From Actinomycetes bacterium (GTDB lineage Bacteria > Actinomycetota > Acidimicrobiia > Acidimicrobiales > Palsa-688): 45,286 nt of DNA. Positions 24,623 to 38,494 of this stretch are shown here, piece after piece. The stretch's first letter is position 1. Every line of letters starts with the position of its first letter. The position numbers were made by a program, and so were the translations under genes. Location: assembly GCA_021788115.1 (NCBI GenBank), contig JAJYLA010000010.1, positions 1-45,286 of the forward strand, read 5' to 3'. Below the pieces are notes generated by a model. That model made no database searches, had not been told where the DNA came from, and saw only the letters and a list, made by a program, of their open reading frames with translations.

Positions 24623-25308
24623 TGGCCGTTCCCTGGTTGCGACAGAATGGATACCTGGTCGGTCAGGGCCACGTCCTCCTGCTTCACGAACGGCTTGACC
24701 ACCGACGAGGTGCTCTCGCTCACGGCCAGCTGCACCCCGGCCTCGGTCGTGCACACGGCGATGGCGCCGGTGAGGGCCGTCGATATGTCGTCGCCGTACT
24801 GGTTGTAGTACGTGAACACGGGCGTGGCTCCGTTGGCCACCCCTGACAGCGTCCATCCCCGCGACACGACGGCGCCCGTGGTGCAGTCGAGGTTCTCGCG
24901 CGTCAAGGTCCTGGCACTCGGCTGGTAGACCCACCCCACGAGGTCGTACTGCACCGGTGGGTAATCGGGGTTGGCGGCGCTCGACGTGCAAGTCCCGGAG
25001 GGGTCGTTGACCTCCAGCTCGATGTGGTCCGGATCCAGGGCGGCGGGCCAGCCGGCCGGTACCGGCACCGACGCCAGGGTGTGCGACGACCGGATGTCAT
25101 GGGCCAGCGCGGAGAGGGTGGTGCTGGCCAGCTGCTCCTGCCGGACGACCGTGTGCCCACGGTCGGCGGCCGTCGACAGCGAGATGAGCGCCCCGCTCGC
25201 TATGGCCAGGACGACGCCCATGACGGCGACCACGACCGTGAGCTCGATGAGGGTGAACCCCCCTTCTCCCCGGGTGCGGGCCGCCGGCCTTCCCGCCCGT
25301 CTCAGCAT
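24616..25308 (-). CDS. PilW-like type IV minor pilin
   Basis: A 230-residue prepilin with a basic leader (MLRRAGRPAARTRGEGG) and a class III cleavage motif, G then FTLIELTVVVAVMGVVLA; Glu at mature position 5 is present. The globular part has a long amphipathic helix with QEQLASTTLSALAHDIRSSH, typical of PilW/PulJ. The start ATG overlaps the upstream gene's stop by 7 bases (ATGCTGA). The C-terminus is NGQC, a terminal cysteine like that of the neighbouring PilV-like protein. It probably joins the minor-pilin priming complex. Confidence 0.82.
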   Translation of the reverse strand: MLRRAGRPAARTRGEGGFTLIELTVVVAVMGVVLAIASGALISLSTAADRGHTVVRQEQLASTTLSALAHDIRSSHTLASVPVPAGWPAALDPDHIELEVNDPSGTCTSSAANPDYPPVQYDLVGWVYQPSARTLTRENLDCTTGAVVSRGWTLSGVANGATPVFTYYNQYGDDISTALTGAIAVCTTEAGVQLAVSESTSSVVKPFVKQEDVALTDQVSILSQPGNGQC

Positions 25309-26681
25309 TGCCCCGTCACCGGGTCGGGCTGGCAGATGTTGACCTGGACCTCGGTCCTCGGGTTGTACGGGGCGGGCGGGTTGCTGTTGGAGCCGGTGTA
25401 GACCGTGAACGTGTGGTTGCCGGGCGTCCACGCCACCTCGGGTCCTCCCGGAGCGGGCACCGCACCGTCGAGCATCGTCTGCTGCGGCTGCTCGGGCGTC
25501 AGCTTGGTGCTCACGGGTGTGCTGCTGCTCGTCGTGTAGTAGACCCAGACGCCTTCTTGTCCGAGACCCGTCGTGCAGTCCTGGCTCGCGTTCACGGTCA
25601 TGGTGAAATAGCCGCCGTTCTGGAGATAGCCGTAGACGTCGACCGCGGCCTGCGTCGGGTTGACGACGAGGCTGTACACGACGCACGCGGAGGGCTGGAT
25701 GCCGGCAGTCGCGCCGGAGCCGGCCAGGCTGGGCACCGAATCGGTCCCCTGGTAGACGGCGATCACCTGGAACCAGTACAGGGTGTCAGGCGCGAGCCCG
25801 GCCACCGTCCAGGAGCCTCGCCCCCCGCTGACGTGCGTTTGCAGCGGTGACTGCCCGAAGAGGCCGCCGGGATAGCCGCTGAAGTCGCCGGTCGTGTTGT
25901 AGTCGACGAGGTATCCGTCCGGGGTCGGGCTTCCAGGGGAGACGGGCCAGGACACCGTCATCGCGCAGCTCGCCTGGCAGGTGCCGGCAGCGACCGTCGG
26001 GGTCCCCGGCTGGCCCGGTGCCAGCCCGCTGCTCGCCGCGGTCGTCGGAGGGCTGTAGTTGTCGTCCTGCGTCGTGTAGAGGCCCCTGCCGCCGGGGTAG
26101 ACGGCGGATGTCTCGGTCACGCTCTGCGGCCCGGTCTGGTCGGTCCACATGACGGTCACGACGCTCTTCTTGTAGGGCCCTGCCACCGTCGTCGTGGTCT
26201 CGGCGTTCTCGACGACGACCTGATCCTGCCAGTAGACGCACCGCCGGATGTGATACGTGACCCCGCCGACGGGCTGCGCCGTCGACATCGAGTCCATCGG
26301 ACCCGCGGCGCTGAGAGTGACCGGCGTCAGCGACCCCCCCGCGCAGTCGTCATAGGGGCTGGTCGCCGGCGTTGTGAGATATCCGACCTCGTAGTAGGGC
26401 AGGGATCGGATCTGCTCGTTCGCCGCCACGGCCAGGCCGTCGGCGATGCTGCGGTCGTTGCTCGTCGCCGCCGCCTTCAGGCTCCCGTAGAACGCCGGCG
26501 CGAGCGCCGCCAGGACGATCCCCATGATGAGCAAGGCCACGAGCATCTCGACGAGGGTGAAACCTCGATCCCGCGTAGAAGCCTCCACGCCGGCTGTTTC
26601 GTGCGGAGGGCGAGAATCCTTGAGGGACGGGAAAATCGGGAAGGGCCGTCGCACGTGACGCCACCGAGCGCGGAGCGCCAT
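25302..26681 (-). CDS. PilV-like minor pilin with an internal fibronectin type III-like domain
   Basis: The protein has a class III prepilin motif, RG then FTLVEMLVALLIMGIVLAALAPAF (Glu5 kept), and a PilV/PulI-like helix. It is much larger than normal minor pilins (459 residues from the ATG at 26681). Around residues 225-310 it holds a fibronectin III-like segment (PGTPTVAAG, TVSWPV, GYLVDYNTTGDFSG, VAGLAPDTLYWFQVIAVYQG). The end has further beta-rich sequence and a terminal Cys. The ATG gives a 40-residue leader, long for a prepilin; a GTG at 26588 would give an 8-residue leader and may be the true start. A tip adhesin is a plausible role. Confidence 0.8.
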   Translation of the reverse strand: MALRARWRHVRRPFPIFPSLKDSRPPHETAGVEASTRDRGFTLVEMLVALLIMGIVLAALAPAFYGSLKAAATSNDRSIADGLAVAANEQIRSLPYYEVGYLTTPATSPYDDCAGGSLTPVTLSAAGPMDSMSTAQPVGGVTYHIRRCVYWQDQVVVENAETTTTVAGPYKKSVVTVMWTDQTGPQSVTETSAVYPGGRGLYTTQDDNYSPPTTAASSGLAPGQPGTPTVAAGTCQASCAMTVSWPVSPGSPTPDGYLVDYNTTGDFSGYPGGLFGQSPLQTHVSGGRGSWTVAGLAPDTLYWFQVIAVYQGTDSVPSLAGSGATAGIQPSACVVYSLVVNPTQAAVDVYGYLQNGGYFTMTVNASQDCTTGLGQEGVWVYYTTSSSTPVSTKLTPEQPQQTMLDGAVPAPGGPEVAWTPGNHTFTVYTGSNSNPPAPYNPRTEVQVNICQPDPVTGQC

Positions 26682-26975: not shown

Positions 26976-27548
26976 TCACGGTGCGACTGGACCGGCGAAG
27001 AAGATCTTCGCCGAGATGCTGGCCGTCAGCTGGGTTGCGGCCCCGGAGATCGAGAGGTTGTCGACCACCACGACCCGTGGCATCTGCGCGAGCCGCGTGA
27101 GGAAGGCCATGAGCCCGGCGTACGATCCCGATGCGCTCAAGGTGATCGGGACGACCTGGACACCGGCGGCGGCGCTCGAGGATCGCCCCGCCGCTCCCGA
27201 GGTGGTCGCGCCCGCCGGGGCGGACGGCCCGACCGACGTGAGGTTCACCCCCGAGAGTGTCGCGGCCTGGTTGAGCTGGGAGAGTGCCTGAGCGAGGCTC
27301 GGCTGGTCGGGCATTGCGGCCTCGAGCACCGCGAGCTTCTTCCTGTCCGCGGGGACCAGCCAGACCAGCGACTGAAGCCGCGACACCTCCGACGCCAGCT
27401 GGCCCACCTGCTGTTCGGCGGCGGCCCTGGCCTTGTGGACGGCGTCGAGCTTCTTGGCCCCCGGATGCCACGCGGCGAGGTACCAGACGGCCACGAGGAC
27501 GATCACCGCCGCCAGGGCGGCTGCTCCGATCCGTCGAGTGTGGGTCAT
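26976..27548 (-). CDS. pilO: Type IV pilus alignment protein PilO
   Basis: The 190-residue product has a short cytosolic lead, one membrane helix (AAALAAVIVLVAVWYLA), a coiled coil (residues about 30-75, KLDAVHKARAAAEQQVGQLASEVSRLQSL) and a C-terminal ferredoxin-like domain. That is the PilO layout. PAMPDQPSLAQALSQLNQAA-type sequence and VVPITLSASGSYAGLMAFLTRLAQMPRVVVVDNLSI are typical of PilO. It pairs with PilN to form the inner-membrane alignment complex. Its ATG overlaps the pilMN stop as ATGA. Confidence 0.87.
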   Translation of the reverse strand: MTHTRRIGAAALAAVIVLVAVWYLAAWHPGAKKLDAVHKARAAAEQQVGQLASEVSRLQSLVWLVPADRKKLAVLEAAMPDQPSLAQALSQLNQAATLSGVNLTSVGPSAPAGATTSGAAGRSSSAAAGVQVVPITLSASGSYAGLMAFLTRLAQMPRVVVVDNLSISGAATQLTASISAKIFFAGPVAP

Positions 27549-29230
27549 GGCTCCACCTTGCTGGCCCGGTTGCTCGCGGCTGCCCTGGCCAGGCCGGCGG
27601 TCGAGCTGAACGTCACGCTTCCCCCGTTCCTGGTGAGCGAGATCCCCGATACCCACACGCCCTGCAGTGAGGGATCTCTCCCCAGTCCGTCCAGCCAGGC
27701 AGATACCGCGGGGAGGCCGCCCGTGCCCTTGACGCTGAAGCTCAGGGTCCCGATCCCGGAGGGCTGCGTGGTCGACGCTGTCGCTGCCGGGGACGGGGTC
27801 GCGCTGGTACCGCTGAAAGTGGCGAGGGAGAGGTTCGGGGGCATCACCGAGGCCAGCTGGCCCAGGAGGCGGACCCAGTCGACGTCTCCTGCGAGGGACG
27901 TCACCACGAGCTGCGCCCGGCTTTGAACCTGGCGATGGACCGCTGTGGCGGCCTCCAGCTGAGTGACCTGCCCCTGAAGGGTGGTCACCTGTCCCTGGAC
28001 CGCATGCACCTGGTCGGTGGCCCGGTGGATGGCCAGGTGCTGTCCCACAGCCGCGGCCCCCAGAAGCACGGCGACTCCCGCGACCGCTGCCGCCGCCACC
28101 GCGGTGAGACGCCGCGCGCGCCGCGTCGCGTTCACCTCGTCGGGTAGGACCGTGAGACGGGACTCAACGGCATCGAAGGGCCACAGCGCCAGTCCGACTG
28201 CGGTCGCAGCCGTCGCCCGAGCCCGCTGCAGGTCCGCTTCCGCCAACACCACCGATTGCATGCCGAGCGAGGCGAAGGGGTCGATTCGATACAGCTGAGC
28301 GCTCAGGCCCCCGGAGAGGGCTTCCACCAGGCCGGCGGTTTGCGAGGCGCCGCCGGTCACGAGCAGGCGCTCTACCGCCGAACCGTCCGACTGGGCCACG
28401 AAGAAGTCGACGGTCGCCCGGACCTCCTCCGCCAGGTCGCGCAACTCCCCGCTCACGGCCCGCCTCGCCTGGGCGAGCTGAGGAGAGCCCTCGGGGAGAG
28501 CGCCCCGCTTCAGCCGTTCGGCGACGGCGGGCTCGATATGCATCGCGCCTGCGATGCCGAGCGTCAGCTTGGCACCCCCGACGGCCAGGCTCCTGATGAA
28601 CTTGGGGGTCGACCCCTCCCGGACCGCGACCGTGGTCATCTCGGCACCGATCGAGACGAGGGCTTCAACCCCGCCACCTCCGCCCGGGCCGGCCGGCGTC
28701 GGCGGCACCACCCGCAGCAGAGCGAGAGGAGTCGCGTCGACCGCGGTCGCCTCCAGGCCCGCACCCCTGAGGGCTGCCAGGTGGTTGCGCAGCAGGTCGC
28801 GGTGGGCCGCGACGAGGAGGATGCGGACCGTGCTCTTACCGTCCCCGTCGGCGGTGGGGCTGCGATCCAGGATCCGGAAGTCGAAGGCGGCGTCCTCCAT
28901 CGGGATCGGGATCAGCTCCTGCGCGTCGAACTGCAGGGCCGATCGGAGGTCCTCTTCGTTGAGAGCAGGCACCTCGGCCTGGCGGACGATCACGCGATGG
29001 CCGGACACCCCGAGGACCACCTTGTTGCCCGAGAACCCTCCCTCGCTCCAGAGACGGCGGAGGGCTGCGCTCACCGCGAGGGCATCCATCACCTCCCCGT
29101 CCACGACGGCTCCCGCGGGCAGGCCCACCTGGGCGTATCGCCGGAGCGACGGAGACGAGCGGTCCGCGTAGATCTCGGCGGCCCGGACCGCGGAGGACCC
29201 GATGTCGAGACCGATGCTCGTCGTGCTCAC
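27545..29230 (-). CDS. Fused PilM-PilN type IV pilus assembly protein
   Basis: A single frame of 561 residues joins two normally separate pilus proteins. Residues 1 to about 345 are the actin-like ATPase PilM: SIGLDIGSSAVRAAEI, ELIPIPMEDAAFDF, VEALVSIGAEMTTV and LLVTGGASQTAGLVEAL. From about residue 355, LTVLPDEVNATRRARR matches the short PilN tail that normally docks in PilM. A membrane helix, a coiled coil (QVTTLQGQVTQLEA) and the PilN ferredoxin-like domain follow. No stop or frameshift separates them. The GTG at 29230 follows GGGGGTGG; GTGs at 29236 and 29242 are alternatives. It should place a PilM domain permanently at the membrane. Confidence 0.9.
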   Translation of the reverse strand: MSTTSIGLDIGSSAVRAAEIYADRSSPSLRRYAQVGLPAGAVVDGEVMDALAVSAALRRLWSEGGFSGNKVVLGVSGHRVIVRQAEVPALNEEDLRSALQFDAQELIPIPMEDAAFDFRILDRSPTADGDGKSTVRILLVAAHRDLLRNHLAALRGAGLEATAVDATPLALLRVVPPTPAGPGGGGGVEALVSIGAEMTTVAVREGSTPKFIRSLAVGGAKLTLGIAGAMHIEPAVAERLKRGALPEGSPQLAQARRAVSGELRDLAEEVRATVDFFVAQSDGSAVERLLVTGGASQTAGLVEALSGGLSAQLYRIDPFASLGMQSVVLAEADLQRARATAATAVGLALWPFDAVESRLTVLPDEVNATRRARRLTAVAAAAVAGVAVLLGAAAVGQHLAIHRATDQVHAVQGQVTTLQGQVTQLEAATAVHRQVQSRAQLVVTSLAGDVDWVRLLGQLASVMPPNLSLATFSGTSATPSPAATASTTQPSGIGTLSFSVKGTGGLPAVSAWLDGLGRDPSLQGVWVSGISLTRNGGSVTFSSTAGLARAAASNRASKVEP

Positions 29231-29353
29231 TGCCACCCCCACGCGCGCCGGATACCGAAGTTCACGAATGCCTTATCGGCACGGCCGGCAGAGTCTTTAC
29301 CCCTTCACCGAAGCCGGACCGTCGTGCGGTCGTGTGCCCGGCGGTTCGACGCG

Positions 29354-30136
29354 CTATCGCACGAGGGTCTGGGAGTACCAGTGGATGATCGGGTCCGCGG
29401 CCAGCAGCGCCACGATGGAGCCGGCGCCCAGGAACACCCCGTAGGGAAGGGGTGTGCTTCGACTGGCCCGCCCCGCAGCCATGAGGCCGATCCCGACCCC
29501 TGCCCCGAGCAGGTTGGCGACCATGAAGCCGATGAAGAGGTACCACGGCCCCATCCAGCCCAGGCCCAGACCGAGAAGCCCGGCGAGGCGGACGTCGCCG
29601 AAGCCGAGCCACCTCGGGCGGGCGAGGTGGATGGCGAGGAAAACTGCGAAGGCGCCGGCGCCGCAGACACCGGCCACGCCGAGGCGGGTCCAGCGCCCGG
29701 TGGCGCCCGCCGCGAGCAGCAGGCCGGCCCCGACGAGCACCAGCGTCGGGTACAGGATCGCGCGCGGCAGCAGGTACCGCTCGAAGTCGACGGCCGCCAG
29801 GGCGATCAGGCCCGCGACGAACGCGAGCTCGGCGGGCAGGGACCACGTGGCCCCTAGCCGAACGGCGGTAAGCGCGAAAAGCACAGCCGTCAGCAGCTCC
29901 ACCGCCGGGTACCGGGCCGAGATGGGCGCCCGGCAGTGCCGGCACCGCCCGCGGAGCACGATCCACGACAGGACCGGGATGTTGTCCTGGGGGGAGATGG
30001 GTGTCGCACAACTGGGGCACGTGGAGCCGGGTGCGACGATGGACCTACCGGATGGCACCCGGTAGATCACGACGTTCAGGAACGAGCCGACGGCAAGGCC
30101 CCCGAGGGTGCACGCGAGGACAGCGAGGGTGAACAT
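29354..30136 (-). CDS. pilD: Type IV prepilin peptidase/N-methyltransferase
   Basis: PilD cleaves prepilin leaders and methylates the new N-terminus. The 260-residue membrane protein has SFLNVVIYRVP, the zinc-binding Cys pairs CPSC and CRHC, the first catalytic Asp in AAVDFERYLLP and the second in GFGDVRLAGLLGLGLG (Arg replaces the usual Lys in GxGDxKL). About eight membrane helices are visible. The ATG at 30136 was chosen because MFTLAVLACTLGGLAVGSFLN is the usual N-terminus. The upstream gene runs 61 bases into this one. It serves all four pilin-type substrates in the cluster. Confidence 0.93.
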   Translation of the reverse strand: MFTLAVLACTLGGLAVGSFLNVVIYRVPSGRSIVAPGSTCPSCATPISPQDNIPVLSWIVLRGRCRHCRAPISARYPAVELLTAVLFALTAVRLGATWSLPAELAFVAGLIALAAVDFERYLLPRAILYPTLVLVGAGLLLAAGATGRWTRLGVAGVCGAGAFAVFLAIHLARPRWLGFGDVRLAGLLGLGLGWMGPWYLFIGFMVANLLGAGVGIGLMAAGRASRSTPLPYGVFLGAGSIVALLAADPIIHWYSQTLVR

Positions 30137-31428
30137 GCAAGATCGGCCCTTTCGGAGACTGCAGCCAGCCCGGCCACAGGGTAGCCGCGCCCCGGTAGCC
30201 GCAGACCGCATGCGCCACCCACAGCTATCGAGGCGGCAACGAGCAGGAGGGCCTCTCCGGCCCACCACATCGCACTATTCGTAACGGTCGGAAATATCAG
30301 CCTCATCCAGGTCTGGGAGGTCGTTGCCGGGTACGTCCACACCATCGCGAGAGTCGGCCAGAGCCAGTCTTGCCAACGGACCCTTCGGCGGGCCGCCGCG
30401 CCGCTGAGTCCCGCCGCTATCAAAGCCGGCGACCAGTAGTAGCTGAAGTTGACGGGCTCCAGAAGTGCACGGACGACCATCACCGCGGCCAGCGCTCCCA
30501 GGAGCTGGGCGGGCGTCCGCCACTGCCTGGTTCGCCACGCGATCGCCGGGGAAGCCGCCAGCGCCAGCATTCGAGCGGGTCTGGAAGTTCTCGACCCGAG
30601 CCAGTGGGCAAAGAATGCGAGGTGTCCGGGATTGCCGCTGTAGACGACCGAGGGGAACAGCAAGGCGTGTGATGCGTGACGCCAATCGACCCCGAGGGTG
30701 AACAAGGCGAGAGCCCCCGGCAGGCTTGCCGCGAGCAGCAGAGTCGTGAGCCTTCGCCCCACCGGAGCCGCCCACACGACAGCAGGCACCAGCAACATCG
30801 CCCACTGCTTGGAGGCGATGGCCACTGCCAGATAGAGGGCGGCGCGGGAGGTGTCGCCGGCCAGGACCCTTCGGGTTGCGTGAACGACGAATGTCAGCGC
30901 GATGACATCCTCGAAGTGGCTCCACTGGGCGGCCGGGAAGAGCACGAGCAGGACAGACAAGGCCTGAACTGCCCACAGGCGCCGATGAACGCCGACCTCC
31001 CATGCCAGACGCCGGACGGCGTGCAGCAAAAATATCCCGTACAGAAGGCTGTAAGGCCCGATGAGCAGCCACGATGTCGGGTGGGCTATCGGAAACGGCG
31101 TGCCGCCAACAAGGTGGAGGTGGTCGGAGAGACCGACGACCGGCGCCAGAAGGATCGCGGACAAGGGAAGCGAGTACCAGTTGGAGTTGACCTCGTACAC
31201 GTAGCCGAGGGCGCCGTTCCACACGTGGAGGGCGGCACCGGTGACCATCCAGATGTCGCCGGGGACGATCCAGGCGTGGACCCCGGCGAACGCTGGCAGC
31301 GCCAGGAGGCTGAAGGCCATGGCGACGACTGTGAATCCCACTCCGATGGCGATCGACGACGTCCAGCAACGGCGGTCCCGTTGCATGTCGCACGGCAGGC
31401 GTTCCGATCGATTCAGGGGTTGTTCCAC
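30076..31428 (-). CDS. Polytopic membrane protein, possible GT-C glycosyltransferase
   Basis: A 450-residue protein with about ten membrane helices. The first outside loop carries acidic and aromatic residues (PGDIWMVTGAALHVWNG, then YVYEVNSNWYSLPLS), and SHFEDVIALTFVV and SKQWAMLLVPAVVW come later. The layout resembles GT-C/mannosyltransferase-like proteins that use lipid-linked sugars, but I see no decisive motif. The gene lies between pilA and pilD, so pilin or surface glycosylation is possible. Base composition is visibly less GC-rich than its neighbours, which may mean transfer. The last 20 codons overlap pilD by 61 bases. The GTG at 31428 has AGGA upstream; an ATG at 31386 is the alternative. 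Confidence 0.65.
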   Translation of the reverse strand: MEQPLNRSERLPCDMQRDRRCWTSSIAIGVGFTVVAMAFSLLALPAFAGVHAWIVPGDIWMVTGAALHVWNGALGYVYEVNSNWYSLPLSAILLAPVVGLSDHLHLVGGTPFPIAHPTSWLLIGPYSLLYGIFLLHAVRRLAWEVGVHRRLWAVQALSVLLVLFPAAQWSHFEDVIALTFVVHATRRVLAGDTSRAALYLAVAIASKQWAMLLVPAVVWAAPVGRRLTTLLLAASLPGALALFTLGVDWRHASHALLFPSVVYSGNPGHLAFFAHWLGSRTSRPARMLALAASPAIAWRTRQWRTPAQLLGALAAVMVVRALLEPVNFSYYWSPALIAAGLSGAAARRRVRWQDWLWPTLAMVWTYPATTSQTWMRLIFPTVTNSAMWWAGEALLLVAASIAVGGACGLRLPGRGYPVAGLAAVSERADLACSPSLSSRAPSGALPSARS

Positions 31429-31533: not shown

Positions 31534-32091
31534 TTACCAGTTGAGCGCCCAGGTACCGGCGGCCTTGGACGCGCTCGCTGTCGTGATTGCTCCGGACGGC
31601 AGAGTGGTGGGAGCGCCGCACAGGAGGGGCGTTTTCTGAAGCCCGGAGTCGTAGTAGTACGTCCCTGCGGACTCGGCACCGGCGATGGGCTGGTCGATGA
31701 CGTCCATCGAGTAGCAGTGGTTGTCCTTGCCGGCAGCCGTGAGGACCACCCCGTTGTTGCCGGCGTCAGCAGCGACGTTGATGTTGTTGCCCGCGGCGAC
31801 AGGGGAGGTCGTCCACGACAGCGCCGTCTCGATCGCCGTCACACCCTGGGTGTCGGTCAGGGCCGTGTCCCACGTCTGGTTGTTGGTCCAATAGGTCTGT
31901 TCTGCGGTGTCGGCGTTGCGCAGGTCCGACTGCGCTGCTCGTGCGTTCGCCGCGTTGCGGGCTCCGAGGAACGTGGGGATCGCGATCGCCAGGAGGATGG
32001 CGATGATCAGAACCACGACCATGAGCTCGATCAGGGTGAAACCCTGCTCGTCGTCGTCACGACCGAGGCGCTGCTTGATGATGCTCAGCAT
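31534..32091 (-). CDS. pilA: Major type IV pilin
   Basis: The 185-residue prepilin has a 17-residue basic/acidic leader (MLSIIKQRLGRDDDEQG) and cleavage before FTLIELMVVVLIIAILLAIAIPTFLGARNAANARAAQSDLRNA, the canonical N-terminal helix with Glu5. The globular domain has a Cys126-Cys158 pair that probably forms the D-region disulfide, many Thr/Asn/Ala residues, and an aromatic end (WALNW). The ATG at 32091 follows GAAAGG; the upstream ATG frame adds an unsuitable leader. A long structured leader precedes it and a strong terminator follows, so pilA is likely its own transcript. Confidence 0.95.
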   Translation of the reverse strand: MLSIIKQRLGRDDDEQGFTLIELMVVVLIIAILLAIAIPTFLGARNAANARAAQSDLRNADTAEQTYWTNNQTWDTALTDTQGVTAIETALSWTTSPVAAGNNINVAADAGNNGVVLTAAGKDNHCYSMDVIDQPIAGAESAGTYYYDSGLQKTPLLCGAPTTLPSGAITTASASKAAGTWALNW

Positions 32092-32200
32092 GTAGATGCC
32101 TTTCGGGTGCGGGATGTGACAACGAGCAGGCGATCCAATACCCGCTCGCATCAAGCAGATCGGAGCCCTTCTGCACCCGCTTGACGGGTTTCCTGTTTTA
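32092..32200 (-). promoter_or_regulatory. Structured 5' leader of pilA, possible riboswitch
   Basis: The 110 bases before pilA can form ACCCG-TCAAG-CGGGT (32175-32189) and a CGATC/GATCG stem (32131-32162) with a GCTT/GAGC hairpin inside. The order ACAGG, AAACC, hairpin, GCAGAAGGGCTCC looks like a degenerate version of the c-di-GMP-I (GEMM) core, ACAGGGCAAACC-hairpin-GACGCAAAGCCTCC, but key bases are missing. It could equally be the end of the upstream transcript plus the pilA promoter region. Confidence 0.25.
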
Positions 32201-32223: not shown

Positions 32224-33813
32224 TCAGCCGCTCGCAGGCAGGGTCGGCGGCGGCACCGTGGTGGAGGTCGCCGGCGGCGGCACCGTTGTCGTGGCGGCCG
32301 GCGCGAGCGTCGCGGTCGTCGTCGACCCGTTGGGCGACGCGGCGGTGGTGGCCGTCGTCGAGGTGGTCGAGCTCGTCGAGGTCGTCGATCTTCCCGACGT
32401 GGTGGTGGCCGTCGTCGTGCTCCCCGGCGGCGACGGGGACTCTGCAATCGGCGAGGTGGAACCGGCGCTCGGCTTCCATCCGTGCGGCGGCGTGGGTTGG
32501 GAGGGTACGGGCCTCGCGGTGGGCACCACCGCCGGTGGCGCCGGCATCCGCGCCGAGGGAGGGGCGTGCAGGGGCACCGGTACGCCCGCAGCATGGACGC
32601 GGCCGAACCCGGCCAGGTCGGACCACCAGATGGACGTCACCCGCACGACGTCGCCGGTGTGGGGGGCGTTGATCATCAGGCCGCCGCCTATGTAGATGCC
32701 CACGTGGTGGATGTCGGTCGTGCCGTAGAAGACCAGGTCGCCGGGCAGCAGCTGGGACAGGGGCACGGGGATGGTCCAGGCGTCCTGGTCGGCGGCGACC
32801 CGGGGGATCTCGACGCCGGCCTGGCGCCACACGAACTGGGTCAGCCCGGAGCAGTCGAAGCGGTCGGGGCCCGTGGCGCCCCAGAGATACGGCTTGCCCA
32901 GCTCGGCGAAGGCCCACGCGAGGGCGACGGGGGTGGTCGCCAGGGGCGCCGGCAGCGGATCCTTCGGGGTGAACTCGAGGTCGGTGGCGGACCGCAGCTC
33001 GGTCCCGGCCTGGAACGCCAGGTCGGTGTGGTCCGCCGCCACCTGGGCGGCCGACCGGGCAGCGACCGACGCCAGCTGCCGCTTGAGGCGCCACTGCTCC
33101 CGGGCCTCGCCCGCCAGAGCGCGCGCGGCGCGCGCGTCCTGGGCGTCCGCCTGGTGTTGCGCGGCGCGCGCCTCGGAGAGGGCCCGCCGCTCGGCCTCGG
33201 CGTCCTGGTGGCGCGCCTGCAGGAGCCCGTCGGGTGTCAGGGTGGTGTCGGCGTAGTCGGCCGCGTAGGCGAGAAGGGGCCCGGCGGAGGGATTGAGGCT
33301 CACGTAGCGGGTGCCGGTCGTGTAGAGGAAGAGCGCCGCCTGGCGGATCGCCCCGGCCAGGCTGTCGTAGGCGGCCTGGGCGGCCCGGGCGTTCTGGAGG
33401 GCGGCGGCCGCCCGGGCGTTCGCGGCGGCTGCGGCGGCGTCGGCCCGCCGCGCGGTGACGGCGTCGGTGTCGAGCTTCGCCTGGGTGGCCGCAAGCGCGG
33501 CTCGCAGGGCGCCGCTGCCGGCGGCGCCGACCCTGCTCAGCGTCACCGCCCGGCCGAGCAGGACCGGGGCGGGCGTCCCGTTGGTGACCGAGAGCGGGAC
33601 CGTCGGAGGGGCCGGGAGCGCGGTGGGGGTGGCGGGCGCCGGCGCAGCGGCGGGGGCTGCCGCCTTCGCGGTGCCTGCGGACGCGGCGCCTGCGGCGGCG
33701 GCCGACAGGAGGCCGGCGGCCGCCAGGCCGGTGGCCAGCACGACAGCGGCCGCCGTACGGCCACGAGCGCCCCACGACGTCACCCTGCGCCCCCGTGGCC
33801 GAAGCAACGACAC
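32224..33813 (-). CDS. Secreted NlpC/P60 peptidoglycan endopeptidase
   Basis: The 529-residue protein has a basic N-terminus and signal helix (TAAAVVLATGLAAAGLLSAAAAGAASA), an Ala/Pro-rich stretch and a long coiled-coil region (about 95-260). The NlpC/P60 domain has catalytic Cys321 in RFDCSGLTQFVWRQAG, His370 in IHHVGIYIGGG and His385 in NAPHTGD. A Ser/Thr/Pro-rich tail of about 80 residues ends in LPASG. This is the RipA/PcsB-like layout of enzymes that cut the stem peptide. Lying between pilC and pilA, it may open the wall for the pilus, though a general growth role is equally possible. The GTG at 33813 follows AGGGAG. Confidence 0.9.
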   Translation of the reverse strand: MSLLRPRGRRVTSWGARGRTAAAVVLATGLAAAGLLSAAAAGAASAGTAKAAAPAAAPAPATPTALPAPPTVPLSVTNGTPAPVLLGRAVTLSRVGAAGSGALRAALAATQAKLDTDAVTARRADAAAAAANARAAAALQNARAAQAAYDSLAGAIRQAALFLYTTGTRYVSLNPSAGPLLAYAADYADTTLTPDGLLQARHQDAEAERRALSEARAAQHQADAQDARAARALAGEAREQWRLKRQLASVAARSAAQVAADHTDLAFQAGTELRSATDLEFTPKDPLPAPLATTPVALAWAFAELGKPYLWGATGPDRFDCSGLTQFVWRQAGVEIPRVAADQDAWTIPVPLSQLLPGDLVFYGTTDIHHVGIYIGGGLMINAPHTGDVVRVTSIWWSDLAGFGRVHAAGVPVPLHAPPSARMPAPPAVVPTARPVPSQPTPPHGWKPSAGSTSPIAESPSPPGSTTTATTTSGRSTTSTSSTTSTTATTAASPNGSTTTATLAPAATTTVPPPATSTTVPPPTLPASG

Positions 33814-33895: not shown

Positions 33896-35122
33896 TCAGT
33901 TGTTGTTCCCTACGAGCTTGATGATGTCGAACATGGGCAGGTACAAGGAGATGACCATCGAGCCGACGGCCCCCCCGAGAACCACGATGAGGAGCGGTTC
34001 GAGCAGCGAGGTGAGGGCGTCGACGGTGCGGGAGACCTCTTGCTCGTAGAACGTGGCAACCTTGCGCAGCAGGGCGTCCAGTGCTCCGGTCTCCTCGCCG
34101 ACGCCCATCATCTGGGTGACCATCGGGGGGAACACCGGGTGGCCGCTCAAGGACCGGGCCATCGGCTCCCCCCGTTTGGCCCCCTCCGCGATGGCATGCA
34201 CGCCCTCGGCGACGACGGTGTTGTTGACCGTGTCGGCGGTGATCTCGAGGGACTCCAGCACCGGGACGCCGGAAGAGAGCAGGGTGGCGAGCGTGCCGGA
34301 GAAGCGGGTCATGGCCGTCTTGCGGACCAGGCCGCCGAAGATGGGGACCCGCAGGACCAGCCTGTCGCGCGTGGCACGCCCCGAAGGGGTCCTCACCCAC
34401 TTGCGGTAGCCGACCACGGCGAGGATCACCGCGACGATCACGAACGGGAAGGCGTGGACGAACACGTCGGAGATCGCGACCAGAAGGCGCGTCGGAGCCG
34501 GGAGCTTGCCCTGCAGCTGGTCGTACATCTTCTTGAAGATCGGCACGATGAAGACCAGCATCGCCGTGAGGATCAGCAGGACGAGAGCGAGGACCATGAT
34601 CGGGTACGACAGGGCGGACCGTATTTTTCCCCGGAGCTCGACCTGCTTCTCGATGATGGCGGAGAGCTCCTGGAGCGTGATGTCGAGGTTGCCGCCCGTC
34701 TCCCCGGCGCGCACCATGGCGACGTAGAGGCGGCTGAACTGCTTGGGGTGGCGGCCCAGCGCCTGGGAGAGGGAGGACCCGGACTCGACGTCGGAGCGGA
34801 TCGAGTCGATCACCCCCGAGAAGAACTTGCTCTCGGTCTGCATCACCAGGATCGACAGGCTTCGCAACAGGGTGAGGCCGGAGCTGATCATGGTGGCGAA
34901 CTGCCGGCTGAAGACCGCGATGTCCTTGAGCTTCACCCGGTTGCTGATGCCGGGGATGGCGATCTCGCGCTTCATGCCGGCGTTGGTCTTGTCGATCGAG
35001 ATGGGCACGTAGCCCATCTGGCGCAGCCGGTTGGCGACGAGCGCGGAGTTCTCGGCCTCCAGCGACCCCGAGACGACCTTGCCGGAGCGGTCCCGGACCT
35101 TGTAGGCGTAGGTGGTCGGCAT
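33896..35122 (-). CDS. pilC: Type IV pilus inner-membrane platform protein PilC
   Basis: PilC is the membrane platform on which PilB and PilT act. The 408-residue protein starts MPTTYAYKVRDRSGKVVSGSLEAEN and has two T2SSF domains. The first is FSRQFATMISSGLTLLRSLSIL through AMVRAGETGGNLD, and the second is TRFSGTLATLLSSGVPVLESLEI through MMGVGEETGALD. Three membrane helices lie near residues 170-195, 220-240 and 378-403. Its ATG overlaps the pilT stop as TGATG. The gene ends GNNN just before the NlpC/P60 gene. Confidence 0.96.
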   Translation of the reverse strand: MPTTYAYKVRDRSGKVVSGSLEAENSALVANRLRQMGYVPISIDKTNAGMKREIAIPGISNRVKLKDIAVFSRQFATMISSGLTLLRSLSILVMQTESKFFSGVIDSIRSDVESGSSLSQALGRHPKQFSRLYVAMVRAGETGGNLDITLQELSAIIEKQVELRGKIRSALSYPIMVLALVLLILTAMLVFIVPIFKKMYDQLQGKLPAPTRLLVAISDVFVHAFPFVIVAVILAVVGYRKWVRTPSGRATRDRLVLRVPIFGGLVRKTAMTRFSGTLATLLSSGVPVLESLEITADTVNNTVVAEGVHAIAEGAKRGEPMARSLSGHPVFPPMVTQMMGVGEETGALDALLRKVATFYEQEVSRTVDALTSLLEPLLIVVLGGAVGSMVISLYLPMFDIIKLVGNNN

Positions 35123-36699
35123 CAGGCGGCCCCGGTGACGAGCCGGCGGAGGTCGTCCTCGTGGTGGCAGCGCTCGAGGGCCACCTCGAGGGAGATCGTG
35201 GAGGTCCGCACGAGGTCGGCGAGCGACTGGTCCATGGTCTGCATCCCGTACCTGCCGCCTCCTTGCATGGCGCTGTAGATCTGGTGGACCTTGCCTTCGC
35301 GGATCATGTTGCGCACCGCCGGGGTGGCGACGAGGATCTCGCAGGCGACCGCCCGCCCCCGGTTGCGCATGCGGGGGAGCAACTGCTGGCTCACGACACC
35401 CTGCAGGGCGGCGGCGAGCTGGACCCGGATCTGCTGCTGCTGGTGGGCGGGGAACACGTCGATGACCCGGTCGATCGACTGCGGCGCGTCCTGGGTGTGC
35501 AGGGTGGCGAACACGAGGTGCCCGGTCTCCGCCGCGGTCAGCGCCGTGGAGATCGTCTCGAGGTCGCGCATCTCGCCGACGAGGATGACGTCGGGGTCCT
35601 GGCGCAGGACGTGCTTGAGGGCGTCGGCGAAGGACTTGGTGTCCTCGCCGATCTCCCTCTGGTTGACCACGCACCGCTTGTGCCGGTGCATGAACTCGAT
35701 CGGGTCCTCCACCGTCATGATGTGCAGGGCGTGGCTGGTGTTGACGATGTCGACCAGCGAGGCGAGGGTGGTGGACTTGCCCGACCCGGTGGGCCCCGTC
35801 ACGAGCACCAGCCCGCGGGGCAGGTGGGCGAAGTCGGCGACGGTCGCGGGGATGCCCAGCTTCTCGAGGGGGGTGATCTGGAAGGGAATGGCGCGCAGCA
35901 CGGCCCCCACGGAGTTGCGCTGGACGAAGGCGTTGAGACGGAAGCGCCCGACGTTCGGCACCGAGTGCGACGTGTCGAGCTCCAGGTCGGCCTCGAACTT
36001 CTCCCGCTGGCGCTGGGTGAGGATCCCGTAGACCAGTTGCCGCAGGTCCGAGCCCGTCAGAACCGGCTTGTCCTCCAGCGGGCGGATCGTGCCGTCGATG
36101 CGCACGCAGGGGGGAAGCCCGGCGCTCAGGTGCAGGTCGGAGGCACCCAGGGCCACCATCTCGGTGAGCAGCGTGTTGAGGTGCGTGTCGACCTTGGGGG
36201 CCTCCTCCTCCTGGCCCGGTTCGCCGAGGCCGGGGTGGGAGGGGACCGGCTTGGCGCGGGTGTCCTCCACGCCGTAGAGCACCTCGATGGCGAGCGTGAT
36301 GTCCGAGCCCGCCGCCAGGATCGGGGCGATCGTCCAGCCGGTCTCCTTCCCCAGCACGCCGATGGCGTTCTGGTCGGTCGGGTTCTCCATCGCCACGAGG
36401 AGCTTCTTGCCGTCGATGCCCACGGCGACGGCGCGCAGCTGCTGGCAGAGGGCGACGGGCAGCATGCCGCCGACGATCGACGGGATCGGCTGGCGGTCGG
36501 GTTCCCACATGGGGACGCCCAGCTGCTCGGCGATGGCCGCCACGAGGTCGCGCTCGCCCACCAGGCCCTCGGAGGAGAGGATCTTGGCGAGCGGGACGCC
36601 GGTCTCCGCCTCGTGGTTCAGGGCCTCTTCCAGGGAGTCCCGGGAGAGCACCTTGCGGGTGACGAGGAACTCGCCGATGAGCCGCGACGGGGTCAGCAT
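35122..36699 (-). CDS. pilT: Type IV pilus retraction ATPase PilT with N-terminal MshEN-like domain
   Basis: PilT powers pilus retraction. The C-terminal half is a clear PilT motor: Walker A TGPTGSGKST (301-310), Asp box MTVEDPIEF, Walker B VILVGEMRD (371-379), His box GHLVFATLHT (393-402), and the PilT-specific AVRNMIREGK (461-470). The N-terminal 150 residues are extra. They begin RLIGEFLVTRKVLSRDSLEEAL and PLAKILSSEGLVGERDLVAAIAEQLGVP, the two helical repeats of a GspE-N/MshEN domain, which binds c-di-GMP in some PilB/MshE ATPases. At 525 residues it is about 170 longer than a typical PilT. GAAGGGA precedes the ATG. Confidence 0.93.
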   Translation of the reverse strand: MLTPSRLIGEFLVTRKVLSRDSLEEALNHEAETGVPLAKILSSEGLVGERDLVAAIAEQLGVPMWEPDRQPIPSIVGGMLPVALCQQLRAVAVGIDGKKLLVAMENPTDQNAIGVLGKETGWTIAPILAAGSDITLAIEVLYGVEDTRAKPVPSHPGLGEPGQEEEAPKVDTHLNTLLTEMVALGASDLHLSAGLPPCVRIDGTIRPLEDKPVLTGSDLRQLVYGILTQRQREKFEADLELDTSHSVPNVGRFRLNAFVQRNSVGAVLRAIPFQITPLEKLGIPATVADFAHLPRGLVLVTGPTGSGKSTTLASLVDIVNTSHALHIMTVEDPIEFMHRHKRCVVNQREIGEDTKSFADALKHVLRQDPDVILVGEMRDLETISTALTAAETGHLVFATLHTQDAPQSIDRVIDVFPAHQQQQIRVQLAAALQGVVSQQLLPRMRNRGRAVACEILVATPAVRNMIREGKVHQIYSAMQGGGRYGMQTMDQSLADLVRTSTISLEVALERCHHEDDLRRLVTGAA

Positions 36700-36766: not shown

Positions 36767-38494
36767 TCACGCGACGACCCGGAGGATCTCGTCGAGGGAC
36801 GTGACGCCCTCGGCCACCTGCACGAACCCCGCCTGGCGGAGCGTCAGCATCCCCTGGCCGAGGGCGGCCTTGCGCAGCTCCTCGGAGTGGCCCCGCTCCA
36901 CGATGAGCCGCTCCACGTCCTCGGTGACCTGCATGACCTCGTGTATGGCGAAGCGGCCGTAGAAGCCGGTGCCGCCGCAGGCGCCGCACCCCTTCGACCG
37001 GTACAGGCGCAGGGAGTCGCGCTCACCGCCGAGCCGCTCGAAGTCCCAGCCGGCGACGGCAAGCTCGGATCGGGTCGCGACGTAGGGCTCCTTGCAGCGC
37101 TCGCAAAGCCGGCGCGCGAGGCGCTGGGCGACCACGCAGTCGATGGCGCTGCCGACCAGGAACGGCTCGACCCCCATCTCGATGAGCCGGCCGGGGGTGG
37201 TCGCCGCGTCGTTGGTGTGGAGGGTGCTGAGCACGAGGTGGCCGGTGAGGGCGGCCTCGACGGCGATGACCGCGGTCTCGCGGTCGCGGATCTCGCCGAC
37301 GAGGACGATGTCGGGGTCCGACCGCAGGATGCTGCGCAGCGCGGAGGCGAACGTCAGGCCCGCCTTCGGGTTGACCTGCACCTGGTTGATGCCCGGCAGC
37401 TGGTACTCGACGGGGTCCTCCACTGTGATGGCGTTCTTGCTCTCCTTGTTGAGGATGTTGAGCGTCGCGTAGAGGGTCGTCGACTTGCCCGACCCGGTCG
37501 GCCCGGTGACGAGTATCGTCCCGTAGGGCTTGCGGAACGAGTGCTCGTAGCGGACCATGTTTTCCGGCAGGAAGCCGAGGTCCGACAGGCGCAGCAAAGC
37601 GGTCGACTTGTCCAGGATCCGCATGACGATCTTCTCGCCGTGCACCGTGGGCAGCGTGGCGACGCGCAGGTCGATGCTCCGGCCGTCGATGGAGGTGGTG
37701 ACCCGGCCGTCCTGGGGGATGCGCCGCTCGGCGATGTTGATGTCCGCCATGACCTTGAGGCGGCTGATGATCCCCGACTGGATGTGCTTGGGCGGGCGCA
37801 TCACCTCGTGGAGCACGCCGTCGATGCGATAGCGCACCCGCACGTCCTGCTCCCCCGGTTCGATGTGGATGTCCGACGCCCGGTCGTTGATCGCCTGGGT
37901 GATCAACATGTTGACCAGCTTGACGATCGGAGAATCCTCGGTGACCTCCCGCACGCTCGAGAGGTCCTGCTCGGCTTCGAACGTGCTCGCCGCCTCCGCC
38001 GAGAGGTGCTCGGCGTCATTGTCGACGCGGTGGTGGCGGCTGATCGCCCCGAGGATGGAGGCTCTCGTCGCGACGGCGGTGCGCACCTCGGCGCCGGTGA
38101 CCGTGCGGATGTCGTCGGCGGCGAAGACGTTGGAGGGGTCCGCCATGGCGACCACCAGCCGCCCCTCGGACCAGCCGATCGGCAACGCCAGGTACCGCCG
38201 GGCCATCGCCGAGCTGATCAGCCGGGCGGCGGCGGCGTCGACGGGATAGTCGGAGAGGTCGACGTACTCCAGCTTGAGATGCGCGGCCAGGGTCGCCACC
38301 AGGTCGGCCTCGGTGACGAGGTTGCCGTCGAGGAGGACCCTGGTCAGGCTGAGCCCCTTCGCCTCGCGGGTCCGGAGGGCGCCCTCGAGAGCCTCGGGTG
38401 TCAGCAGCCCCGAATCGACCAGCAGGCCTCCGAGTCGTTCGTCGTCGGACGGCGTCGGGTTCGCGCCGCGCACCGCTAGCGCCGGCGTGGTCAC
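36767..38494 (-). CDS. pilB: Type IV pilus extension ATPase PilB
   Basis: PilB drives pilus assembly. The 575-residue protein has an N-terminal MshEN/GspE-N domain (about 20-80: LGGLLVDSGLLTPEALEGAL, LTRVLLDGNLVTEADLVATLAAHL), the N2 domain with SDIHIEPGEQDVRVRYRIDG, Walker A GPTGSGKST (331-339), the Asp box ITVEDPVEYQL, Walker B DIVLVGEIRD and GHLVLSTLHTNDA. The zinc-binding tetracysteine CERC...CGAC (464-467, 503-506) separates PilB from PilT. The GTG at 38494 has GAAGG six bases upstream. A 67-base gap separates it from pilT. Confidence 0.95.
   Translation of the reverse strand: MTTPALAVRGANPTPSDDERLGGLLVDSGLLTPEALEGALRTREAKGLSLTRVLLDGNLVTEADLVATLAAHLKLEYVDLSDYPVDAAAARLISSAMARRYLALPIGWSEGRLVVAMADPSNVFAADDIRTVTGAEVRTAVATRASILGAISRHHRVDNDAEHLSAEAASTFEAEQDLSSVREVTEDSPIVKLVNMLITQAINDRASDIHIEPGEQDVRVRYRIDGVLHEVMRPPKHIQSGIISRLKVMADINIAERRIPQDGRVTTSIDGRSIDLRVATLPTVHGEKIVMRILDKSTALLRLSDLGFLPENMVRYEHSFRKPYGTILVTGPTGSGKSTTLYATLNILNKESKNAITVEDPVEYQLPGINQVQVNPKAGLTFASALRSILRSDPDIVLVGEIRDRETAVIAVEAALTGHLVLSTLHTNDAATTPGRLIEMGVEPFLVGSAIDCVVAQRLARRLCERCKEPYVATRSELAVAGWDFERLGGERDSLRLYRSKGCGACGGTGFYGRFAIHEVMQVTEDVERLIVERGHSEELRKAALGQGMLTLRQAGFVQVAEGVTSLDEILRVVA

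Follow-up and report, generated by a model that had tools for sequence, protein, structure and literature searches.

PilM of the type IVa pilus is described in the accessible part of a study (PMC5805733) as binding the N-terminal motif of PilN in a pocket, and an excerpt of another article (PMC11656802) describes it as the stator socket for PilB. Genes encoding PilM and PilN as one protein have been noted in Clostridioides difficile, according to the available text of a review (PMC6916266), and in most pilus clusters of Campylobacterota, according to the available portion of a preprint (PMC11870540); a similar architecture is found in GspL, PulL, and EpsL, single chains in which one membrane span joins a PilM-like cytosolic domain to a ferredoxin-like domain outside the cytoplasm. 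This report concerns a fused pilMN gene in contig JAJYLA010000010.1 of an Actinomycetes bacterium of the class Acidimicrobiia (assembly GCA_021788115.1; positions 1 to 45,286, the whole stretch being referred to as the window). The gene probably arose naturally and long ago, when PilM became joined to the N-terminal end of PilN within a type IVa pilus system of Acidimicrobiia; its product most likely works in a GspL-like manner and bears a docking motif that has drifted. An earlier reading of the same DNA (the original prediction) had taken the fusion as new; as such it is already known, with GspL as the standard parallel, and would not surprise a specialist. The fusions of C. difficile and Campylobacterota likewise unite PilM and PilN in one gene of a type IVa pilus cluster, although they belong to phyla other than that of the window and are known here by published description alone. 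The window protein differs from GspL, PulL, and EpsL in that its sequence is that of PilM and its cluster includes PilT; the recognisable PilN motif that stays in its linker may be a further difference. The closest structural counterpart is 5EOU, an engineered Pseudomonas aeruginosa PilM:PilN1-12 chimera, which displays the same order of PilM end, short linker, and motif with almost the same spacing; according to the accessible part of its description (PMC5805733), the chimera was made for crystallography and stops after 12 PilN residues, whereas in the natural protein all the rest of PilN follows. Separate PilM and PilN of Acidimicrobiia and other Actinomycetota have the same domains in the same order, often encoded by overlapping or abutting genes, but form two chains.

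The open frame of 561 codons predicted at 27545-29230 was confirmed and lies on the minus strand, which the original prediction had left unstated (Table 1). An alternative in-frame GTG at 29242 would give a product of 565 amino acids. Third-position guanine-cytosine content is 0.80-0.96 on either side of the junction in the same frame, and the remaining two frames of the strand are interrupted by stops. The Pfam model PF11104 matches residues 7-349 of the product (model positions 1-337 of 340, E 2.3e-47, 162 bits, cut-off 27), and the NCBIfam pilM model TIGR01175 matches residues 4-349 (E 2.2e-56, 191.3 bits, cut-off 133); because PF11104 also matches in 9 of 14 control genomes, the pilus assignment rests on TIGR01175 and on the gene cluster. 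The Pfam PilN model PF05137 matched neither the window protein (E up to 1), nor its C-terminus alone (E up to 0.1), nor anything in the window's genome (E up to 10). This model is weak, exceeding its cut-off in just 2 of the 14 control genomes, and C-termini of relatives match it at E 0.1 or better in 20 of 24 scanned cases (best 3.4e-8). The domain search called for by the original prediction thus returned the PilM models directly and missed PilN, the homology of which emerged from profile comparison: a profile of the C-termini aligns over nearly its whole length with a profile of 19 separate class PilNs (hhalign probability 100, E 4.7e-50), all 19 of which match Pfam PilN at E 0.1 or better, and the separate-PilN profile matches the window C-terminus at E 3.1e-37 (6-199 of 206 positions). 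PilM and PilN in one frame, as predicted, are borne out, and the product is confirmed to comprise a complete PilM (residues 7-349) and a complete PilN (about 359-561). One PilM copy was found by the genome search, and the separate-PilN profile found no second PilN in the window's genome, the assembly of which is 94% complete, so that a copy may be missing. The other match to this profile (G000:C66:16629-16871, E 0.002) was rejected as a second PilN, since by eye it looks like FtsL in a frame behind an rsmH-like gene. The NF045709 model of the Amuc_1101 family (PilM-like, 608 positions) matches residues 3-463, a likeness extending beyond PilM, but the score of 146.7 against a cut-off of 650 places the window protein outside that family.

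The survey of relatives for split and fused versions that the original prediction had proposed covered 247 genomes of Acidimicrobiia, 81 of which bear PilM; 80 loci were read, and one genome with PilM in two fragments (G062) was left unclassified. An intact fusion was found in 44 of the 81 genomes and a separate pilM followed by a PilN with motif in 33, the remaining fusions being damaged, i.e., broken in frame in two cases (L017 and L076) and cut by the contig end in one (L058). The frame-broken fusions L017 and L102 (both of genome G209) and L076 (G127) lie in very long contigs of 1.86 and 3.0 Mb, respectively. Within the order of the window, all 12 PilM-bearing genomes, the window's own included, carry the fusion. 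Among 43 named loci, several of which are the same contigs as in the class survey, 25 are fused, 16 separate, one frameshifted, and one cut. Outside the class, PilM is present in at least 240 of 396 genomes of a phylum sample, and all 44 classified loci are separate, these being the 30 best-scoring matches and 14 hand-chosen loci rather than a random draw. Because these 44 are separate, an origin apart from the fusions of C. difficile and Campylobacterota is favoured. The sole fusion outside the class among the named loci is that of Cryobacterium melibiosiphilum (Microbacteriaceae; L119:3998-5674), which reflects either a separate fusion or gene transfer. Eight loci of the other-class families f73 and f90, with open frames of 490-786 amino acids, were considered as further fusions and rejected; PilM ends as in separate genes and is followed by a PilN start with the motif, which was established for seven loci by reading the junction and for L161 only through the motif search. 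The PilM frames of L154-L159 (f73) span 490-740 amino acids, or 446-532 if translation is taken to begin close to the PilM domain, with a separate PilN behind, and this PilM seems, from its sequence, to hold a large insert. Another unusual product is encoded by L075:804-3746 (minus strand; 980 amino acids), where PilM is followed by approximately 450 residues rich in Pro, Ser, Gly, and Ala, a hydrophobic helix, and, by eye, a PilN-like end; its motif-like IDVL stands directly behind PilM and not before the membrane. The fused PilMN tail of L097 is almost the same as that of L104.

The fusion looks old and widely kept in Acidimicrobiia. In a tree of 115 PilM domains, obtained by a quick search with support from the Shimodaira-Hasegawa approximate likelihood ratio test (SH-aLRT) only, a single clade supported at SH-aLRT 99 comprises 48 of 51 fused rows and two frameshifted ones. 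The other three fused rows, L012, L080, and L119, sit on long branches elsewhere in the tree, and at least three changes of state between fused and separate are needed. In a 45-row set, keeping all 24 fused rows together was not rejected (p-AU 0.77) and gave a likelihood better than the free search. No intact reversion to separate genes was seen inside the fused clade. Because 48 of the 51 fused rows share one clade, a single old fusion would be the simplest reading. The spacing between separate pilM and pilN of the class (n = 32) is -1 in 15 loci, -4 in three, and 0 in two; since the genes so often overlap or abut, a minor alteration of the pilM stop could be enough to fuse them, and the fusion presumably arose in this manner.

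The junction is nearly what would result if a PilM end of 3 residues were simply joined to a PilN start such as MRPINLLP. The PilM end runs into the PilN start, and therefore the PilN docking motif forms the linker. The cytosolic docking tail of PilN that had been predicted directly behind the PilM domain is indeed found there, at residues 359-366, and linker length is nearly constant: the distance from the estimated end of PilM to the start of the motif is 7 residues in 30 of the 44 class fusions and 2-10 residues in all 44. The description of the tail as LPxE-like was correct as to its presence and less so as to its form, as the canonical motif is INLLP (INLLPxE), from which LTVLP (LTVLPDE) of the window has diverged. 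All 33 separate PilNs of the class have Asn at position 2, Leu at position 3, and Pro at position 5, and 32 of them have Glu at position 7; outside the class (n = 56), the counts are Asn 51 and Asp 5 at position 2, Leu 56 at position 3, Pro 55 at position 5, and Glu 45 at position 7. The form x[ND]L[LIVM]P is present in 92 of 93 separate PilNs, one having Leu in place of Pro (89 motifs were located by pattern, and four, which fit x[ND]L[LM]P, by eye). Among 53 fused proteins, L075 being left aside, position 2 is Asn in 29, Asp in 12, Ser in nine, and Thr in three; position 3 is Leu in 52 and Val in the window protein only; position 7 is Glu in 23; and position 5 is Pro in 41, a count in which losses among ten named rows are invisible, as the pattern used for these also fixed Pro5. 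The motif positions of L001, L040, and L075 were set by eye, there being no pattern match in L001 and L075. The columns flanking position 3 in class fusions have an entropy of about 2.2-3.4 bits.

The erosion around a nearly constant Leu is also evident at equal overall divergence. Among pairs binned by identity across the remainder of PilN (20 to 40%), the motif itself had a mean identity of 0.48-0.50 for fused pairs against 0.90-0.95 for separate pairs in the class and 0.74-0.91 outside it, the pairs being non-independent. On the tree, counted over 49 fused rows (51 less L075 and L119) and 61 separate rows (62 less L118), Pro5 was lost at least four times in the former and never in the latter, Asn2 changed at least ten times against once, and Leu3 changed once against not at all. 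Glu7 is present in 19 of the 49 fused and 54 of the 61 separate rows, the numbers of changes being equal (six and six). Tethering seems from these sequences to have relaxed most of the motif and hardly Leu3.

Structure prediction of the linker, also suggested beforehand, aligned the motif on the path of the PilN peptide in 5eou, with a predicted local distance difference test score (pLDDT) of 79 at residues 351-360 and 91 at residues 361-370. The AlphaFold2 model matches the PilM-fold structures 5eou, 2ych, and 3jc8 at Z 36.9-38.5, the top match being 5eou_B (Z 38.5, root-mean-square deviation (rmsd) 2.6, model residues 3-364 on chain residues 10-366), whereas for PilM crystallised without PilN (5eox, 5eoy, and 5eq6) the rmsd is 4.2-4.3 and the alignment ends at residue 352-353. 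Because 5eou fits to residue 364 better than PilN-free PilM does, the model appears to resemble the PilN-bound form of PilM. The C-terminus, also modelled alone with AlphaFold2, was predicted as an alpha-beta-beta-alpha-beta-beta domain and matches the folds of PulL (Z 9.9), PilO (9.4), XcpY (9.3), EpsL (8.8), and PilN (7.7). The fused chain would thus run from a cytosolic actin-like PilM through the docking motif in a short linker to the membrane helix of PilN, then to a long helix, and last to a ferredoxin-like domain outside the cytoplasm. PilM would reach the membrane already attached to PilN, the linker motif would dock in the PilN groove of its own PilM or of a neighbour, the docked PilM would adopt the closed PilN-bound shape, and the chain would couple PilB and PilT to PilO, the pilins, and PilC, as GspL does. 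We infer the cis docking, the closed form inside cells, and the GspL-like coupling. Since the tether would keep the motif at the groove, high-affinity docking would be unneeded and the motif could drift.

Several points weigh against this interpretation. The AlphaFold2 model was built from 25 sequences, may reproduce 5eou and 2ych because of its training, and is blind to docking in cis versus in trans. FtsA structures, which include no PilN, align at an rmsd of 2.8-4.1, some at 2.8-3.2, and the best of them fits better than PilN-free PilM; because FtsA also fits, the closed shape alone is no proof of PilN docking. Foldseek alone returned no match for the C-terminus at E 0.001 or better (best 2.6e-3, to PilO). 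The Val at position 3 of the window motif makes docking appear less sure than in relatives, and the count of Leu at this position in class fusions (42 of 44, the exceptions being the window protein and L075) is favoured by a pattern that requires Leu there. The placement of L012, L080, and L119 outside the main clade makes more than one fusion possible. Furthermore, binding to PilM in monoderms may involve another PilN motif, located near the C-terminus, according to the accessible part of a review (PMC6916266). The retention of INLLP in separate PilNs of actinobacteria points to use of the N-terminal contact in this group.

Docking might also occur in trans, each linker entering the groove of the next PilM so that the fusion would link a ring rather than close each subunit. 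A model of separate proteins in which PilM and PilN form a dodecameric ring, as given in the accessible part of its report (PMC8389850), would accommodate this arrangement. A linker this short might favour the one geometry or the other, and the two cannot be distinguished by the single-chain model or by the 5eou alignment; the single-chain model nevertheless places the motif confidently on the 5eou path without a second chain, and trans docking is regarded as unlikely. It is considerably less probable that the protein is fused only on paper, PilN being freed by proteolysis or by an internal start and the two chains then assembling. Two in-frame GTG codons, 366 and 378, stand just behind the motif and could serve as such starts, but the product would be without the docking motif, none of the 44 intact fused genes has its frame interrupted at the junction, and relatives with 30-41% identity to the window protein still conserve part of the linker motif.

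The architecture would equally suit a type II secretion GspL, PulL, XcpY, and EpsL are among the folds closest to the C-terminus, and the neighbouring PilO also matches GspM-type models. Against this, the N-terminal part scores above the pilM cut-off of TIGR01175, the cluster includes a PilT above its cut-off, PilT having been lost from type II secretion systems according to the available text of a review (PMC10191384), and the cytosolic EpsL structure (1yf5) ranks 39th, behind the listed PilM and FtsA chains; on these three grounds, assignment as GspL instead of a pilus PilMN is highly improbable. The joining of two genes by a sequencing or assembly error is hardly conceivable. Frameshifts at fused genes do occur (L017 and L076), yet the errors seen break fusions and none makes one, and the intact fusion recurs in the class survey and among the named loci; the 43 further intact fused genes of the class rule out the loss of a stop near 28150 through such an error, which had been named in advance as a refutation.

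The natural PilM-PilN fusion is therefore retained as the preferred reading. The original prediction was right that it would give synthesis at a ratio of 1:1 and tie PilM to the membrane; equal numbers as such are not new, being part of the dodecameric ring model as far as its accessible description goes (PMC8389850). The further claim that the PilM cycle could not apply was too strong, as the motif can leave and re-enter its own or a neighbouring groove. An on/off docking model of PilM and PilN was reportedly put forward by McCallum in 2016. This model stays compatible with the fusion; what the tether prevents is the swapping of bound PilM for soluble copies, and it does not by itself remove the opening and closing of the groove. 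A more far-reaching proposal, which is offered tentatively and is rather doubtful, is that the docking motif decayed since the tether replaces affinity, that PilM is permanently tied and mostly closed, that repeated release of PilN is unneeded for extension and retraction, and that only the central Leu contact is required in most lineages. The fusion offers a view of a former docking contact wearing down once PilM and PilN are tied together, and a large one-chain clade beside separate-gene relatives constitutes a natural experiment on the contacts that survive tethering; Aciditerrimonas ferrireducens MV1 (L103) is a named fused strain in which PilM should be unable to leave the membrane. In the library searched, no paper joining Acidimicrobiia, type IV pili, and PilM was found, motif erosion after fusion not having been searched by its own terms.

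Table 1. Features of the pilMN gene and of the surrounding pilus cluster in the window.
Feature	Position	Strand	Basis and remarks
Fused pilMN gene	27545..29230	minus	561 codons; GTG start 29230, TGA 27547-27545, without internal stop
PilM actin-like ATPase domain, residues 7-349	28184..29212	minus	PF11104, TIGR01175, genome search, 5eou/2ych fold matches
PilN docking motif LTVLPDEV, residues 359-366, in linker between PilM and membrane helix	28133..28156	minus	Aligns with PilN1-12 part of 5eou; motif statistics
Helix 364-397 with presumed PilN membrane span	28040..28141	minus	AlphaFold2 helix; hydrophobic sequence read directly
PilN part (residues 359-561), running from motif through presumed membrane helix and long helix to alpha-beta-beta-alpha-beta-beta domain 452-547	27548..28156	minus	hhalign, profile match, models, fold matches
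Minor pilin-like protein with fibronectin type III domain	25302..26681	minus	N_methyl E 3.9e-9, fn3 E 8.6e-7 (Pfam)
pilO	26976..27548	minus	PF04350 E 8e-12; 4-base overlap (ATGA) with the pilMN stop
pilD, prepilin peptidase, upstream neighbour	29354..30268 (start approximate)	minus	A24_N_bact E 1.8e-35, Peptidase_A24 E 1.6e-7 (Pfam)
Type IV pilin	31534..32154	minus	N_methyl E 4.8e-9; GspG-like E 3.3e-12, below cut-off
pilC platform protein	33896..35113 (start approximate)	minus	C-terminal part of 870-codon frame 36508-33896; T2SSF E 2.8e-63
pilT retraction ATPase, N-terminal MshEN	35122..36699	minus	TIGR01420 E 3.4e-147, over cut-off; MshEN E 1.2e-10
pilB extension ATPase with MshEN	36767..38494	minus	TIGR02538 E 7.9e-191, below cut-off; T2SSE E 1.3e-138; MshEN E 6.4e-22

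The genes around pilMN are arranged on one strand in the order PilB, PilT, PilC, pilin, PilD, pilMN, pilO, and pilin-like proteins, and the cluster is, judged by its gene content (PilM, PilN, PilO, PilB, PilT, PilC, pilin, and prepilin peptidase), a type IVa pilus system. The PilC model NF052607 matches residues 466-864 of the frame 36508-33896 at E 2.5e-133, below its cut-off, and no NCBIfam match was obtained for PilD. MshEN is expected on PilB rather than on PilT. In this cluster, both motors carry it, the N-terminal domain of the PilT at 35122-36699 matching the cyclic diguanylate (c-di-GMP) motif model NF053729 above its cut-off. Furthermore, an NlpC/P60 peptidoglycan hydrolase-like protein is encoded within the cluster at 32224-33813 on the minus strand (RipC model E 5.6e-22, below cut-off) and could open the cell wall for the pilus.

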